Shown here one piece after another: positions 1,472 to 7,593 of a stretch of 10,523 nt of DNA. A program made the position numbers and the translations under genes. Within the stretch, counting starts at the first letter, position 1. Each line of letters starts with the position of its first letter. Origin of the DNA: JALSIF01 sp026981635 [NCBI: bacterium] (GTDB lineage: Bacteria; 4484-113; JALSIF01); assembly GCA_026981635.1 (NCBI GenBank), contig JALSIF010000281.1, positions 1 to 10,523 of the forward strand, given 5' to 3'. The notes under the pieces are model-generated. The model made no database searches, was not told the DNA's origin, and saw nothing but the letters and a program-made list of their open reading frames with translations.

Positions 1472-4066
1472 ATGATGGAGCACGAGGCGGAAAAAACGCG
1501 CATCATCTCCAAGGCTGAGGAGGCGGAGAAGACCGTCATCGGCCCCGACCGCCCCTACACCAAGCTGATTGCCAAGCCGGAAGGTGAGGCGACCATCATC
1601 GCCGAGCGTCCCCTGGGGGCGGAGGAGACGATAATTGGGGAGCCGGTCCAGGTCTCCCTGGGGGACCTTAGGCCCTACCTCTCCCTGGAATGTTTGGCCT
1701 ACAACCACTTTGCCTTGGCCGGCCAGCCCACCCAGAACTACCTGCTGGCTAACCTGAGCGCCGGCTACGAGGGAGGAACGAAGCTCGGCCGGCCGCCAGT
1801 GGCGCTGGTTTTGGTGCTGGACAAGAGCGGCTCCATGGAGGGGCGGCCGTGGGAGCACCTGATGATGGCGGTGCGCTACATCGCCTCCCAACTTACCCCG
1901 GCGGACCTTCTGGGCATCGTGGTGTTTGACGAGTATGTGGAGACCCTGCTTGAGCCCCAGCCGATGCTGGACGGGGAGGAGCCGGTGAGGATCATGGCCA
2001 AGGTCACCCCCCGTGGCACCACCAACCTCCACGCCGGCCTGGTGAGGGGGGTGGGGCTACTCAAAGATGCCAAGGCCCAAGGTGCGGTCAAGCGGATCCT
2101 GCTTTTAACCGACGGGGATGTGAACGAGGGGGTGACCGAGTACTCCCAGATCGTGATGGAGGCGCGCATCGCCCGCACCTACCAGATCGGGGTGAGTACC
2201 CTGGGGCTGGGGATTGAGTACAACGAGGAGCTGCTTACCGGCATCGCCAAGCACGGGGCGGGCAACTACCACTACATTGAGACCCCGGAGGACCTGGCCG
2301 AGGCCTTCAGCCAGGAGATGGAGAGCCTGTTTAAGGTGGTGGCCCAGGCGGCTAGCCTGACCCTGAAGCTAGGTAGGGGGGTGCGCTTTGACCGGGTCTA
2401 CGGGTTTGCCCACGAGCAGGTGGGCGACCGGGTGGAGATCGCCCTGCCCGACCTTGCGGCGGGCGAGAGCCTGCCGGTGCTTGCCAGGCTGGTGCTTGAG
2501 GGTGGGGAGCCGGGCGAGGAGACCTCGGTGGAAGTGGACCTTGCCTTCCGCTATGCGGGAAGCGATGAGGTGAGGCACCTCAGGGAGGTGGTCACCTACA
2601 CCTACACCGACGACCGCCAGAAGCTCCTGGAAGGGGTCAACCGGGCGGTGGACCGCATCATGCGGGAGAAGGATGTGGTGGAGGAGATCGCCCAGGCCAC
2701 CCAGATGATGGAGCGCGACCCCGCCTCCGCCACCCGCATCCTGGCCAAGGCCCAGGCCGAGCTGGCCAGGCGGGGCAGGGCAAGCGACGCCACCTTGATT
2801 GCCGCCGGGGTGGAGAAGGCGGAGCGGGGGGCGGTGGCCGATGCCACCAAGCTTATTTCCCAGAGCCTGTTTGCCCTGGAGCAGGGGAGGACCACGCCCC
2901 TGGGGGAGCTTGACTTGGCCAGCGAGGCGGAGGAGGCGGTAAGGCGGGCGACCGCCCCGGCAGAATTTGCCGGGGAGGAGCCGGGAGAGAAAACTATGGA
3001 AGAGAAGCATGGCCTAGTGGGCGAGGTACCGGAGGCCCGCCAGGCGGGCGGGGAGGCTGGTGAGGCGGGGAAGAAAGGCCCGGTTGCCCGGCTGGTTGAG
3101 GTGGGAGGCGGGCTTAGCTTTACCCTCTACGCCGATTCCCACTACCGCTTGGGCCGGAAGGTGGGTGAACTCATCATTCCGGAAGACATCTATGTCAGCC
3201 GATTGCATGGGGAGTTTGAGGTAAGCGGCGATGGCGTTCGTTACCGCGACCTGGGCAGCTCCAATGGAAGCGTGCTCAACGGTGAGCGGCTTCCCGCCGA
3301 GCACTGGGTGGAGCTCAATGACGGAGACACCCTCACCGTGGGACAGACCAGCCTTAGGCTGGAGATGATCGTCCCCCTGCTTCCACTTGGGGAAGGGAAG
3401 CAGGAGGCTCAGGCGGAAGAGAAGCCGGTGGTGGAGGTGGCCGAGGAAGAGGAGAAGACCGAGGAAGGGGAAGTTTCCCCCACTGAGCGGCCGGTTCCCA
3501 CCGGTGGTGAGCAGGTGGGGGAGTCGGGGGACCTTGAGGTGATGGCGGCCGCTGCCGGGGTGGGTCCGGAGGTGGGGGAGATGGCCCCGGAGGAGGAGCT
3601 GACTACCCCTACCTACCTCCTGGTCAGAGTGGAGGATGGCAGGAGCTGGCCCATAGAGCCGGGAGAGACGGTCTTTGGCCGGGGCGGCTCGGGGTGCGAT
3701 CAGGTAATTGACGGCGACGAGTACATCAGCCGGCGGCATTTTGCCATCTGCCTGGAGGCCGACGGGACCCTCTCCATCACCGACCTGGACTCCACCAACG
3801 GGACCCTGGTGGACGGCAAGGAGCTTGAGCCCCGAGTGAGCTATCCCCTGGCGCCGGGAGTGGAGATCAAGGTGGGCAAGACCACCCTTACCATCAAGGT
3901 CCCCGAGGAGCTGGTGGTGGAGGGGGAGGAGGCCGGCGAGGCCCCGCCCCAGGGAGAGGGAGAGGGAAAGGTTGAGCCTTCCTCCCCCCCGGAGGAGCTG
4001 GGTAGCTGGGAGAGTGAAGGAGGAGCTCCTGCCCCTCCCCCCCAAGAGGGGGAGGAGCAGGGCTGA
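1472..4066 (+). CDS. vWA domain protein with two C-terminal FHA domains and an N-terminal Thr-motif array
   Basis: This is an 864-residue, probably cytoplasmic protein with no signal peptide or membrane segment. Residues 1-58 carry short Thr motifs (listed as a separate feature). A vWA domain at about 108-290 has a complete MIDAS: D117-x-S119-x-S121, T183/T184 in RGTTNL, and D214 in TDGD. It should therefore bind a divalent metal and a partner protein. The region 290-400 looks like the beta-sandwich that follows vWA in the YfbK / Ca-activated chloride channel-like family, then a helical, Ala/Glu-rich stretch to about 520. FHA1 (about 540-633) keeps R562, S576-R577-x-H579 and N598-G599. FHA2 (about 713-809) keeps R737, S753-R754-x-H756 and N776-G777. 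These are the residues that contact phosphothreonine. The linker between the FHA domains and the C-terminal tail are Glu/Gly/Pro-rich and probably disordered. The ATG at 1472 follows AGGGT by a few bases, and the next codon is also ATG. The gene lies 24 bases upstream of a PP2C phosphatase gene. Together they indicate phospho-dependent protein assembly. The exact partner is unknown. Confidence 0.9.
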   Translation: MMEHEAEKTRIISKAEEAEKTVIGPDRPYTKLIAKPEGEATIIAERPLGAEETIIGEPVQVSLGDLRPYLSLECLAYNHFALAGQPTQNYLLANLSAGYEGGTKLGRPPVALVLVLDKSGSMEGRPWEHLMMAVRYIASQLTPADLLGIVVFDEYVETLLEPQPMLDGEEPVRIMAKVTPRGTTNLHAGLVRGVGLLKDAKAQGAVKRILLLTDGDVNEGVTEYSQIVMEARIARTYQIGVSTLGLGIEYNEELLTGIAKHGAGNYHYIETPEDLAEAFSQEMESLFKVVAQAASLTLKLGRGVRFDRVYGFAHEQVGDRVEIALPDLAAGESLPVLARLVLEGGEPGEETSVEVDLAFRYAGSDEVRHLREVVTYTYTDDRQKLLEGVNRAVDRIMREKDVVEEIAQATQMMERDPASATRILAKAQAELARRGRASDATLIAAGVEKAERGAVADATKLISQSLFALEQGRTTPLGELDLASEAEEAVRRATAPAEFAGEEPGEKTMEEKHGLVGEVPEARQAGGEAGEAGKKGPVARLVEVGGGLSFTLYADSHYRLGRKVGELIIPEDIYVSRLHGEFEVSGDGVRYRDLGSSNGSVLNGERLPAEHWVELNDGDTLTVGQTSLRLEMIVPLLPLGEGKQEAQAEEKPVVEVAEEEEKTEEGEVSPTERPVPTGGEQVGESGDLEVMAAAAGVGPEVGEMAPEEELTTPTYLLVRVEDGRSWPIEPGETVFGRGGSGCDQVIDGDEYISRRHFAICLEADGTLSITDLDSTNGTLVDGKELEPRVSYPLAPGVEIKVGKTTLTIKVPEELVVEGEEAGEAPPQGEGEGKVEPSSPPEELGSWESEGGAPAPPPQEGEEQG
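1490..1639 (+). repeat. Coding array of five T-x-[IL]-[IAG] motifs (putative phosphothreonine sites)
   Basis: Within the first 58 residues of the vWA-FHA protein, Thr9, 21, 30, 41 and 53 each start a motif: TRII, TVIG, TKLI, TIIA and TIIG. Four are preceded by acidic or Lys residues (EKT, EKT, EAT, EET). Spacing is 9-12 residues. FHA domains bind pThr and often select the residue at +3, so these look like kinase targets that the protein's own FHA domains could dock on. Similar TxLG-type tails occur before FHA domains in other bacteria. Phosphorylation itself is inferred. Confidence 0.5.
4028..4061 (+). promoter_or_regulatory. Strong GC hairpin at the 3' end of the vWA-FHA gene
   Basis: CCTGCCCCTCCCCC (4028-4041) pairs with GGGGGAGGAGCAGG (4048-4061) in a 14-bp stem with one mismatch and a 6-base loop. 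It ends three bases before the TGA stop and 30 bases before the PP2C start. No T tract follows, so it is not a classical terminator. It could damp or process the transcript between the two genes. It also simply encodes a Pro/Glu-rich tail, so chance formation from codon bias is possible. Confidence 0.4.
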
Positions 4067-4090
4067 TAGAGGGTCTAAGATTTCCCCTTG

Positions 4091-5584
4091 ATGATGGGGC
4101 CAACTCAACCTGAACCGGCAGACCCCACGGGCGTCATCCTCTACCGGACCAGCCTGGGGAGTACCTCGCTTGCCACCTCGGGCAATGGAGCCAGTGTCTG
4201 CCGCTGGGAGGCTGGCGAGGGGCTGCCCACCGAGGCGGTCAGCCGGCTGACCAACCTGCTGCTGCTTCACGAGGACCATCCCCTGATCCGGGTGAGGGAC
4301 TTTGTCAGCCACCCGGAGGCCAGGCTGATGGTGGACCTGGAGCCGGTGGAGTTTACCCTCGCCCAGGTCCTTTCCGGCGAGGTGTGGGCCCGGCCGGTGG
4401 CGGTGCTTGGCGCCCTTTGCGAGCTTGACCGGCAGATGGTGGAGCTTTCTGGCGAGGCAGGCGGCCTGCCCCCGCTTCCCGCCCCCGAGCAGGTCGGTTT
4501 TGAGCTGGCCGGAGAAGGGCTTGCCGCCCAGGATCTGGTCCCCCGCCTGCTGGCCCCGGAGCTCCTGGTGGCGGGGGATGAACTGGGCTCTGAGGAAGGG
4601 GCCGGAGAGCAGGCCGGGGAGGGGCTCTTGGTGCGCCTCTCCCGGTGGCTGAGGGAGGTGCCGGTTTGCTTTGGCGAGGGCCACCGCGAGCTGGCCGACT
4701 TTCTGGCCGAGGCGGGAGGGGAGGTGAACCGGGCCGGCTCACTCCATCCCCTCCTGGCGGAGGTGGGGATTAACCTTGGGCTTAGTGCCGAGACTTCGGT
4801 GGGGCTGGTGAGGGAACAGAACGAGGACCGCTACTTCACCTCCCTTACCGTGGTGGGGGAGCCGGAGAGGCTGGTGGGAGTGATCCTGGTGTGTGACGGG
4901 ATGGGCGGCCACGCCGCCGGGGAGGTGGCAGCCGACCTGGCCAGCCGCTACATGGGAGCGATGCTCACCACCCACGCTCTCACCTTTGATGCCCGCCACG
5001 ACCACCGGGTTGAGATCCAGGGCTATGTGGACTGGGTGGCGGAGAAGCTCTCCTCCATGGCGGCGGAAAGGCCCGAACTTGCCGGCATGGGGACCACCCT
5101 AAGCGGGGGGCTGGTGGTGGAGCGGGAGGGCTTTGGGGCGGACGGCCTGGTGGTTAACCTGGGTGACAGCCGCACCTACCTTTACTCCGCCGGCAGGCTG
5201 ATACGCCTCACCCGCGACCACGACGCGGCCAGCGAGATGGTGGCCCGGGGAGAGATGAGCGAGGAGGAGGCCCGCTCCAGTGGCTACTCCAGCATGCTCA
5301 CCCGCTGCCTATGTGCCGAGCCCTCCAACCGGGAGGTGGATGTCTTCTCCCTCACCCTGGGGGGAGGAGAGGCGCTCATTGCGGCAAGCGACGGACTAAC
5401 CGACCTGGTGGAGGATGGGGTCATCTTGCGGATCCTCGCTGAGGCCCACTCCCCCGACCAGGCGGCTGAGCTCCTGGTGGAGGAGGCCAACCGCCGGGGT
5501 GGCTTTGACAACTCAACCGTGCTGGTGCTCACCCTCTCCTGGCTGGTGCCAGAGTTTGCTGAGGGAGAAGAGGAAGAGGGGTGA
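4091..5584 (+). CDS. PP2C-family Ser/Thr protein phosphatase with a degenerate kinase-like N-terminal region
   Basis: A 497-residue protein predicted to dephosphorylate pSer/pThr with two metal ions, in the cytoplasm. The PP2C domain occupies about 230-485 and is complete: QNED with D246, CDGMGGH with D269-G270, GMGTTLSG, NLGDSRTYLY with D359, SDGLTD with D434, and GFDN with D473-N474. The first 225 residues are not part of PP2C. They follow the rhythm of a eukaryotic-like kinase (LLLHEDHPLIRVRDF, then RLMVDLEPVEFTLAQVL, a helix, then a LPPLPAPEQVGFEL-like stretch). However, no Gly loop, catalytic Lys, HRD or DFG is present, so any kinase fold would be inactive. ATG 4091 is chosen; TTG 4088 and ATG 4094 are adjacent alternatives, and the ribosome site (GAGGG at about 4069) is weak and distant. 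The acidic C-terminus ends in GEEEEG. It follows the vWA-FHA gene and its last bases overlap the next gene by 4 bp. It probably reverses phosphorylation read by the FHA domains. Confidence 0.93.
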   Translation: MMGPTQPEPADPTGVILYRTSLGSTSLATSGNGASVCRWEAGEGLPTEAVSRLTNLLLLHEDHPLIRVRDFVSHPEARLMVDLEPVEFTLAQVLSGEVWARPVAVLGALCELDRQMVELSGEAGGLPPLPAPEQVGFELAGEGLAAQDLVPRLLAPELLVAGDELGSEEGAGEQAGEGLLVRLSRWLREVPVCFGEGHRELADFLAEAGGEVNRAGSLHPLLAEVGINLGLSAETSVGLVREQNEDRYFTSLTVVGEPERLVGVILVCDGMGGHAAGEVAADLASRYMGAMLTTHALTFDARHDHRVEIQGYVDWVAEKLSSMAAERPELAGMGTTLSGGLVVEREGFGADGLVVNLGDSRTYLYSAGRLIRLTRDHDAASEMVARGEMSEEEARSSGYSSMLTRCLCAEPSNREVDVFSLTLGGGEALIAASDGLTDLVEDGVILRILAEAHSPDQAAELLVEEANRRGGFDNSTVLVLTLSWLVPEFAEGEEEEG

Positions 5585-7593
5585 GGCTTCGCATCGGGAT
5601 CGATGTGGGCGGCACCTTCACCCACGCCGTCGCCCTGGACGAGGAGCTGAACCTGGTGGCCAGCGCCCGCACCCTGACCACCCACCGCCATCCCCTCGGG
5701 GTTGCCCAGGGGATCAGGGAGGTGCTGGATAGTCTCCTGCAGGAGATCCCTTCCCCGGGGAGGGTGGAAAGCATCGCCCACTCCACCACCCAGGCGACCA
5801 ACGCCCTGCTGGAAGGGAGGTTTGCCCCGGTCCGTCTGCTGGTGGTGGCACCGGGAGTGATGGGCCTGCTGGCCAGGGTGCAGCTTGGTAGTGGGGAGCT
5901 TTCGGTGGGGGAGGCAAGGCTTCTCTACTCCTTCCACCTCTTCCCCAACTTTTCGGAACTTGAGCGGCTGGGCGACATCTCTGACCCCGAGACCCTCACC
6001 GTGCTCCTTGTCCCCTTCCCCGATGAGCAAGGGCTGGTGGAGCGGGAGTTTGCTGCCCGCCATACGGGGATGATGGCGGCAAGTGGGGTCGCACCCCGCC
6101 TGGGGCTCAAGCACCGGGCCCTTACTGCCCTGGCCAATGCCGCCCTGGTCCCCATCATGGAGGGGACGGCCAGAGAGACTGAGCGGGTGTGCAGGGAGCT
6201 TATGCCCGGTGTTTCCCTGGCGGTGCTCAGGAGCGACGGTGGGGTGATGGGGGCGCGTGAGCTAAGCCAAAGTCCGGTCCAGGCCATCTATTCGGGACCG
6301 GCGGCCGGGGCCAGTGCGGCGGTGGGCTACCTGGGGCTGGGGGACGGCATCTTCATTGAGGTGGGGGGAACCTCCACCGACATCACCCTGATTGAGTGCG
6401 GCCAGGTGCCCAGAAGCCAGATCACCATCGGCGGCACCCGCCTGCTGGTGGAGGGACTAGACCTGAGGACGGTGGGGATTGGCGGTGGGAGCCTGCTCTC
6501 TGAGGAGGGCAGGCTCGGCCCCCACTCCGCCCACCAGGCAGGGCTAAGCTACTTCGCCTTCGGCCCCAAGGCCAGGCTTCCCCTCTCCGTCTCTACCCTG
6601 GAGCTTACTGAGCACCGCTACCTGGTCTTCACCGACGGGGCGGGGGAGCGGTTTGGCCTAACCCTCAGCGACATCTCCCTCTTTCTGGGGACGGCGGAGA
6701 AGGCCGGTGAGCCCGAGGGGGAGCGGATGGCTGCCATTGGCGAGGCGCTGGAGCTAGCCCAGCAGGTGGTGGGAAGGCCAGCCCACGAGCTTGCCTCCCG
6801 CTCCCTTGAGGGGGCAGTAAAGAAGCTTGCCGGTGAGATCAGAGGGCTGGTTCAGGACTACCAGCTGGAGGACACCTCCTCGCGCCTGCTCATCGGCGGG
6901 GGTGGGGGAGCCCCATACCTCATCTCGCCGCTGGCCAGCGAACTGGGCATGGGATTTAGGCTGGCCCCCCACACCGAGGTGATCAGCGCCATCGGGGCGG
7001 CCCTGGCGGTCCGCTCAGTGAGCCTGGTCAGGGAGGCGGCCGACCCCACCCCGGAGCTCTATCGGGAGCTCTCCCGAGAGGCGGCAAGGAGGCTTGGGGC
7101 AGAAAGCGAGGAAGCGGTGCGGCTGTCCTTCGCCTACTCTCCCTCAGCCCGCACCCTCACCCTCCAGGCCCACCTTCCCCTCCACCTGGGCAGGGGGGAA
7201 CTTTCCCTGCAGGAGCTCACCCGCCTAGCCGCCCAGTTCTTCCCCGCTGGCCGAGCGGAGCTGGTGGAGAGGGCGGGAGGGGTGGTGGTGTTTGGGGAGG
7301 GGGGAAGGAAGGGGAGGAAGCGACTGGTGGTGCTTGACCCAACGGGGAGACTTCTGGCCCGCCTCTACCGCTACCGGGTGGCCCCCGTCAGGGAGGTGGG
7401 GGAGGTGCTTGGGCTTTTGGACGAGAACCGACGCTTTGGGGACAGTGGCGGACGCATCCCGCTGGCTCTGGTGGCCTGGCGGGGATGTCTGATTGACCTT
7501 CGCAGTCTGCCTGAGCTTGAGCAGGTCCGCTCCGCGCTGGAGCTGCAAATGAAGGGAGAGGGAGAGGGGCTCCTTTTCCTGCGGCCGGTCTAG
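5581..7593 (+). CDS. Hydantoinase/oxoprolinase family protein (HyuA-like ASKHA ATPase)
   Basis: A 670-residue protein that starts at GTG 5581 inside the phosphatase stop (GTGA, 4-bp overlap, preceded by AGGAAGAGG), so the two are probably translationally coupled. Hydantoinase A signatures appear in order: GIDVGGTFT (6-14), HSTTQATNALLEG (67-79), SDGGVM (218-223), YSGPAAGASAAVGYLG (237-252), GGTSTDITLI (262-271), GIGGGS (299-304), IGGGGGAPYL (438-447) and ISAIGAALA (468-476). These are the phosphate- and nucleotide-binding loops of the ASKHA fold. In this family they drive ATP-dependent opening or activation of cyclic amides such as hydantoins and 5-oxoproline, or carboxylation. Residue 15 is His where most members have Asp (GGTFTD). 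The last 190 residues are a separate, weakly conserved alpha/beta region. No HyuB partner is seen nearby. The setting beside vWA-FHA and PP2C genes suggests a role other than hydantoin catabolism, but the substrate is unknown. Confidence 0.88.
   Translation: MRLRIGIDVGGTFTHAVALDEELNLVASARTLTTHRHPLGVAQGIREVLDSLLQEIPSPGRVESIAHSTTQATNALLEGRFAPVRLLVVAPGVMGLLARVQLGSGELSVGEARLLYSFHLFPNFSELERLGDISDPETLTVLLVPFPDEQGLVEREFAARHTGMMAASGVAPRLGLKHRALTALANAALVPIMEGTARETERVCRELMPGVSLAVLRSDGGVMGARELSQSPVQAIYSGPAAGASAAVGYLGLGDGIFIEVGGTSTDITLIECGQVPRSQITIGGTRLLVEGLDLRTVGIGGGSLLSEEGRLGPHSAHQAGLSYFAFGPKARLPLSVSTLELTEHRYLVFTDGAGERFGLTLSDISLFLGTAEKAGEPEGERMAAIGEALELAQQVVGRPAHELASRSLEGAVKKLAGEIRGLVQDYQLEDTSSRLLIGGGGGAPYLISPLASELGMGFRLAPHTEVISAIGAALAVRSVSLVREAADPTPELYRELSREAARRLGAESEEAVRLSFAYSPSARTLTLQAHLPLHLGRGELSLQELTRLAAQFFPAGRAELVERAGGVVVFGEGGRKGRKRLVVLDPTGRLLARLYRYRVAPVREVGEVLGLLDENRRFGDSGGRIPLALVAWRGCLIDLRSLPELEQVRSALELQMKGEGEGLLFLRPV

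Follow-up and report, generated by a model that had tools for sequence, protein, structure and literature searches.

A fused vWA-FHA-FHA protein beside a PP2C phosphatase as a probable bacterial phospho-threonine switch resembling ArnA-ArnB

Introduction

ArnA-ArnB is a rare example of a prokaryotic switch built on forkhead-associated (FHA) and vWA domains that has been worked out, and it has been worked out in archaea only. As described for Sulfolobus acidocaldarius, ArnB consists of a vWA domain, a beta-sandwich and a C-terminal helical bundle. ArnC phosphorylates ArnB, to which the ArnA FHA domain then binds tightly, and the zinc finger of ArnA makes a loose ArnA-ArnB complex (PMC6509490, PMC12852372). 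Here we describe three genes in a 10,523-nucleotide stretch of DNA from the bacterium JALSIF01 sp026981635 (contig JALSIF010000281.1, assembly GCA_026981635.1), the whole of which we refer to as the window. These genes encode a vWA-FHA-FHA protein, a PP2C phosphatase and a HyuA-like ASKHA protein, and from sequence comparison we conclude that the window probably encodes a phospho-threonine switch that resembles ArnA-ArnB, in a fused bacterial form.

Several other described systems hold part of this gene set. A conserved archaeal operon combines genes for a calcineurin-like phosphatase, a zinc ribbon-FHA (ZnR-FHA) protein and a vWA-beta-barrel protein (PMC7016017), and the TerY-P triad is described as vWA, PP2C and Ser/Thr kinase genes lying together (PMC11090510). 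The threonine phosphorylation pathway of type VI secretion comprises PpkA, PppA and Fha (PMC5995506), of which PpkA joins a kinase to a vWA domain (PMC1262709), and actinobacterial neighbourhoods with kinase, PP2C and vWA genes have also been reported (PMC7159879). A first-pass annotation of this DNA had stated that no system with this set was described, which is too strong given how close ArnA-ArnB (PMC6509490, PMC12852372), the archaeal operon (PMC7016017) and TerY-P (PMC11090510) come. In a literature search that had most subscription journals outside its reach, no report came up of vWA, ZnR-FHA-FHA, PP2C and kinase genes forming an operon in bacteria.

Results

Gene order in the window and in a second phylum

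Open reading frames and Pfam matches placed the three genes on the plus strand. The vWA-FHA-FHA gene (1472..4066; 864 amino acids) is followed after 21 bp by the PP2C gene (4088..5584; 498 amino acids), counted from a TTG start for which ATG at 4091 or 4094 is a possible replacement, and the PP2C gene overlaps the HyuA-like gene (5581..7593; 670 amino acids) by 4 bp (GTGA), so the three genes are as closely packed as the first-pass annotation had them.

The window's order of vWA, FHA-FHA and PP2C is also the order found in a second phylum. A vWA profile made from the window's class picked up remote homologues in another phylum, first in two genomes and in both cases adjoining FHA genes, and a profile search at E<=1e-60 matched vWA in 72 of 121 genomes of this second phylum. 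We examined 36 of these loci from 15 families, 30 with 1.5-kb flanks (the best-scoring loci rather than a random draw) and 20 with longer flanks, 14 loci being shared by the two sets. FHA was present in the examined flank at all 36 loci, and PP2C at 20 of the 30 loci with 1.5-kb flanks. Among the 20 loci with longer flanks, an FHA-FHA gene stood directly downstream of vWA in 17 (zinc ribbon in 16), PP2C came next after FHA-FHA in 15, a Ser/Thr kinase came next after PP2C in 11, and at least one FHA gene lay upstream of vWA in 12. Read with Pfam, one such operon runs FHA, FHA, vWA, FHA-FHA, PP2C and lastly a kinase that carries TPR repeats.

On the evidence of gene order, it is supported that vWA, FHA-FHA and PP2C make up a module beyond chance adjacency. 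The distinct regulatory module suggested by the first-pass annotation, which was to be checked by co-occurrence of homologues of all three window genes, therefore survives in part: vWA, FHA-FHA and PP2C occur together across 15 families of the second phylum, well beyond one species, but HyuA was matched at none of the 36 loci (1.5-kb flanks for 30 loci, long flanks for 20), and the kinase-like fusion that was part of the proposal found no support.

Variation was also seen among the second-phylum loci. At two loci of family f8 (L104 and L105), the vWA gene is preceded by two FHA genes, and no PP2C or kinase match was found in the stretch. One ZnR-FHA-FHA protein (L233:10258-11520) starts with a DnaJ domain (Pfam E 3e-12), and a second (L222:10274-11353) has a DnaJ start as judged by eye.

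Genes in the window's own class

The class was sampled with 10 genomes, the window's and nine relatives, from 4 families. A vWA orthologue was found in eight of the nine relatives, that of G005 being a fragment at a contig end, and was not found in G009, whose genome is 77% complete. Eight of nine relatives have a ZnR-FHA-FHA protein, and whole-protein searches found a PP2C with matching N-terminal domain in eight of nine; in G002 no whole-protein PP2C match was obtained and the N-terminal domain alone was found. Separate, adjacent vWA and ZnR-FHA-FHA genes occur in that order in G004 and G002, and we take the window's gene to be a fusion of these two neighbours. When genome contigs were scanned at species level with the PP2C protein as query, two distant loci were the sole matches. 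No kinase match was found among the window genes, and all 10 class genomes have a Pkinase match over the cut-off; in the window's genome this lies on other contigs, and in relatives G003 and G006 a kinase lies about 5.5 kb from vWA. The earlier observation that there is no active kinase thus holds for the window genes but not for the genome.

Domains of the vWA-FHA-FHA protein

Pfam cut-offs were exceeded in this protein by a VWA match (residues 112-279) and by two FHA stretches. The vWA domain (1805..2308) retains the residues of a metal ion-dependent adhesion site (MIDAS), D117-x-S119-x-S121, T183/T184 and D214, which are invariant in 16 aligned homologues including the window's protein, and this agrees with the metal competence predicted in the first-pass annotation. 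Its prediction of two intact FHA domains was likewise confirmed: domain 1 (3143..3349, about residues 558-626) reads GR, SRLH and NG in translation, and domain 2 (3668..3877, residues 733-802) reads GR, SRRH and NG, so both carry the GR, SxxH and NG motifs, named as in PMC1262709.

The closest resemblance of the window's FHA-FHA part, by BLAST ranking, is to the ZnR-FHA-FHA proteins, as the 19 best matches were class proteins and downstream FHA-FHA proteins, ahead of the first upstream FHA protein. We used this ranking alone because a tree of FHA domains (76 domains, 90 columns) left the window's domains unplaced; in the set behind both tree and ranking, the proteins of G118 and G254 were provisionally grouped under the second-phylum label.

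The C-terminal helical bundle of the vWA part (2615..2881, residues 382-470) was predicted in a single-sequence model with per-residue confidence (pLDDT) mostly 85-91 in this region. The modelled bundle, whose matches include ArnB and its paralogue, aligned with 5a8j (Z 8.5, root-mean-square deviation 1.6, 65 aligned) and with 8s05, which is ArnB (Z 8.2, root-mean-square deviation 2.5, 74 aligned), with unrelated bundles ranking higher than either and the rest of the model being poor.

Tandem Thr motifs in N-terminal tails track FHA linkage

The protein begins with a tail (1472..1657) that contains the tandem Thr motifs KTRIIS, KTVIGP, TKLIA, ATIIAE and ETIIGE. Class vWA proteins start with comparable repeats, such as DATIIAP and EATVVA, and three Thr columns are invariant over nine class sequences that are 36-39% identical to the window's. 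We defined a motif pattern, [DEN]xTx[IVLMA], on the class sequences, whose tails contain 3-5 motifs each, above shuffled sequences in nine of nine (p 0.0334 at worst) in what is a post hoc test, as the motif was first spotted in those sequences. When it was applied unchanged to the 36 second-phylum tails, the pattern matched 53 times; shuffled tails averaged 6.8 matches with a maximum of 17, and none of 2000 shuffles reached 53; at least one motif was present in 31 of these tails and at least two in 14. The 18 vWA homologues that have no FHA gene in their flanks gave 2 hits against a shuffle mean of 2.1, two of these control tails being just 3 and 9 residues long. By these counts, the Thr tails track FHA linkage rather than vWA alone. 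ZnR-FHA-FHA proteins often carry such motifs as well. Because FHA domains are specific for phospho-threonine, we infer that the tail is a phospho-acceptor, and the motif enrichment in an independent phylum is consistent with this role.

vWA homologues outside the two groups

A profile made from both groups matched in 31 of 289 genomes (E<=1e-40). We read 20 loci from genomes belonging neither to the class nor to the second phylum. FHA was missing from the flanks at 18 of them and lay directly downstream at the other two, so FHA linkage is a property of a subset of vWA proteins. Many of the 18 homologues without FHA have a membrane or signal-like start, as judged by eye. Genomes G118 and G254, of other families, have vWA followed by ZnR-FHA-FHA alone. 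In a plasmid collection, 41 records held vWA proteins of more remote kinship, all of which covered less than 80% of the query.

The PP2C protein and its N-terminal domain

The catalytic domain (4793..5533, residues 236-482) exceeds the Pfam cut-off for PP2C, and the Asp-bearing PP2C motifs are invariant across nine aligned proteins, in line with the phosphatase predicted from the sequence earlier. It is fused to an N-terminal domain of about 230 residues (4088..4777) that was found in 10 of 10 class genomes and in 0 of 279 others. The first-pass annotation had read this domain as kinase-like, and no test bore this out: no Pfam kinase match was obtained at E<=1 in any of nine members, the probability from hhalign comparison with 10 class kinases was 0.2%, and a search of solved structures gave a single match (E=0.68) that is not a kinase. 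The alignments were shallow, and a single-sequence model (pLDDT 38) was too poor to judge a kinase fold. A pseudokinase at the PP2C N-terminus is thus unsupported by Pfam, solved structures and hhalign.

Comparison with described systems

When the class vWA profile was compared with 66 solved sequences, ArnB in the ArnAB complex (8s05) ranked first (E 6e-17). Compared with ArnA-ArnB as it is described (PMC6509490, PMC12852372), the loci share a related vWA protein, in which the ArnB layout of split beta-sandwich and C-terminal bundle may recur and which is paired with a zinc-finger-FHA protein, as well as a kinase and a phosphatase that would set the phosphorylation state. They differ in having their candidate phospho-sites in tandem in an N-terminal tail, a reader with two FHA domains instead of one, a PP2C in place of the PP2A of Sulfolobus, and a bacterial host. 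An ArnA-type partner joining a zinc finger to FHA is absent from the window, where reader and scaffold are fused without a zinc ribbon; ZnR-FHA-FHA proteins are present in eight of nine class relatives and at 16 of 20 second-phylum loci. The archaeal operon matches the module in three roles, but its phosphatase is calcineurin-like instead of PP2C and its description, as available, mentions no kinase gene (PMC7016017).

The second-phylum operons resemble TerY-P in keeping vWA, PP2C and Ser/Thr kinase genes together; the kinase that defines TerY-P is present at 11 of the 20 long-flank loci and absent from the window genes. They differ from TerY-P as described, in which there are no FHA readers, the kinase carries a zinc ribbon or OB-fold, and neither an ArnB-like layout nor a Thr tail is mentioned (PMC11090510), so that it is by description that TerY-P is set apart here. 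The type VI pathway also unites kinase, vWA, PP2C and FHA (PMC5995506, PMC1262709) but is tied to a secretion machine (PMC5995506). The window's FHA protein scored 53.3 bits against TagH (TIGR03354), with a cut-off of 120.25, and so does not belong to the TagH/Fha family, and a scan of the window's own genes showed no secretion genes.

The HyuA-like gene

The hydantoinase A-like assignment of the third gene stood, with Hydant_A_N (75.5 bits) and Hydantoinase_A (142.8 bits) both above Pfam cut-offs and N-methylhydantoinase (7hk5) and 5-oxoprolinase (6yra) as the nearest solved chains. The protein differs from that family in falling far below the NCBIfam equivalog cut-offs, and it belongs to a diverged clade with the motifs GGTFTH (GGTFTR in two) and HSTTQATNALLEG, where the usual HyuA motif is GGTFTD. 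The clade is spread over many families without a fixed neighbour. HyuA-like genes were found in nine of nine class relatives (eight full-length, and in pieces within one 986-amino-acid frame in G001) and in 11 further genomes outside the class (E<=1e-80). At these 20 loci the HyuA profile matched every time, and the profiles for FHA, PP2C, vWA, kinase and the PP2C N-terminal domain matched at none; three of the loci (L034, L175 and L177) end about 110 bp or less from the gene on one side, and 1.4-14.6 kb per side was examined at the others. No HyuB partner was matched among the window genes scanned.

The 4-bp overlap that had suggested translational coupling of the ASKHA protein to the phosphatase is real, but because partner genes are absent from the stretches examined at all 20 loci elsewhere, the tight junction is not a conserved link. 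The first-pass proposal depended on this adjacency recurring in relatives, and it recurred at 0 of 20. We therefore rejected HyuA as a system member on its neighbourhoods and on those of the 36 vWA loci; it looks like a chance or lineage-specific neighbour.

Outside the class, a neighbour of the HyuA-like gene does recur. At L171 and L173 the adjoining upstream genes encode related proteins that look multi-spanning and have no Pfam match, and at L175 such a protein lies at a distance of two genes.

Discussion

We propose the following order of phosphorylation, FHA binding, dephosphorylation and output. A Ser/Thr kinase, encoded elsewhere in the genome (and next after PP2C in many second-phylum relatives), would phosphorylate the Thr motifs in the tail of the vWA scaffold; the FHA domains would bind the resulting phospho-threonines; and the neighbouring PP2C would strip the phosphates and so reset the switch. 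In relatives, the separate vWA and zinc-ribbon-FHA-FHA proteins would associate upon phosphorylation. As vWA and FHA-FHA are one chain in the window, tail and reader could there close on each other within the molecule, and such closure would change the binding partners of the vWA metal site and of the other FHA surface. The fusion suggests in its own right that scaffold and FHA readers act together.

Several observations weigh against this interpretation. The genes are mostly unlinked in the class: FHA stands beside vWA in three of the nine class genomes that have vWA (G004, G002 and, fused, the window's) and was not found near vWA at the other six loci, and the window is the one place where PP2C adjoins vWA. 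In family f8 of the second phylum, three loci have FHA genes upstream but lack FHA-FHA, PP2C and kinase downstream. The vWA proteins of G118 and G254 have no Thr tail and an altered MIDAS, and neither PP2C nor a kinase was matched in the stretches around them, and L255 and L257 are linked to FHA and lack a Thr tail, which argues against a universal tail; these two were outside the tail test, as the MIDAS pattern failed on both. In the window itself, the FHA-FHA part has lost the zinc ribbon and shows no CxxC, and the PP2C protein lacks the [DE]xTDP[LF] motif, a Thr motif (TDP) that the other eight of the nine aligned PP2C proteins keep. The lead of ArnB over inter-alpha-inhibitor chain H1 (ITIH1, E 9.3e-16) in the profile comparison is small, and the bundle matches to ArnB/vWA2 and to another vWA protein lie among generic four-helix bundles. 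Finally, the phospho-sites described for ArnB are in the C-terminal bundle, not in an N-terminal tail (PMC6509490, PMC12852372).

Three other explanations of the locus were weighed against these data. If the cluster were a module of four parts, with the HyuA-like protein tied to the phosphatase by translational coupling as its functional partner or output, this would account for the same-strand overlap of the two genes and for the fact that no class genome is without HyuA-like genes (full-length in all relatives except G001); the lack, in the stretches examined, of partner genes at the HyuA-like loci elsewhere and of HyuA at the second-phylum vWA loci makes this very improbable. A TerY-P-like triad that acquired FHA domains, and in which a degenerate kinase-like part of the phosphatase took the place of the kinase, would fit the neighbouring vWA and PP2C genes and the separate kinase after PP2C in the second phylum. 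We consider it unlikely, as the tests made found no kinase similarity in the PP2C N-terminal domain, the vWA part is longer, ArnB-like and has FHA partners (TerY being known here by description), and the kinase of the one operon scanned has TPR repeats rather than the zinc ribbon or OB-fold described for TerY-P (PMC11090510).

To a similarly small degree we credit the idea that phospho-threonine housekeeping genes with separate targets lie together here by chance, as in the FHA, PP2C and kinase clusters around actinobacterial cell-division genes. The scattered genes of the class relatives are in keeping with it, and FHA, PP2C and kinase matches do lie near each other on one actinobacterial contig (L032), but chance would not readily keep a gene order over 15 second-phylum families or fuse vWA to FHA, and the Thr tails follow FHA linkage. 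The ArnA-ArnB-like switch therefore remains our preferred interpretation.

A broader claim is one that we hold tentatively, as falling a little short of probable: that these loci are a widespread, undescribed bacterial counterpart of ArnA-ArnB whose scaffold, reader, eraser and writer are encoded by a single operon. The tandem Thr tails on vWA and FHA proteins would then be multi-site phospho-acceptors, counting how active the kinase is instead of switching on or off at one site, the fusion in the window would be a self-closing single chain, and the module would share a common ancestor with archaeal ArnAB. A bacterial operon that has these parts and its own kinase and phosphatase would be a complete writer-reader-eraser set that could be rebuilt in vitro, would make it testable what vWA metal sites do in phospho-signalling, and would inform the question of whether signalling was the original role of the Sec23/24-like vWA scaffold.

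Other observations in the window

None of the defence-system models was matched by the vWA-FHA-FHA, PP2C or HyuA-like proteins, and two flanking genes of no assigned family gave no match in PHROGs. The gene upstream of the cluster (353-1375) encodes a signal-like stretch and matches FlgT_C below threshold (E 0.057). A tRNA-Thr on the opposite strand overlaps the first 100 bases of this gene, so its start is probably later.

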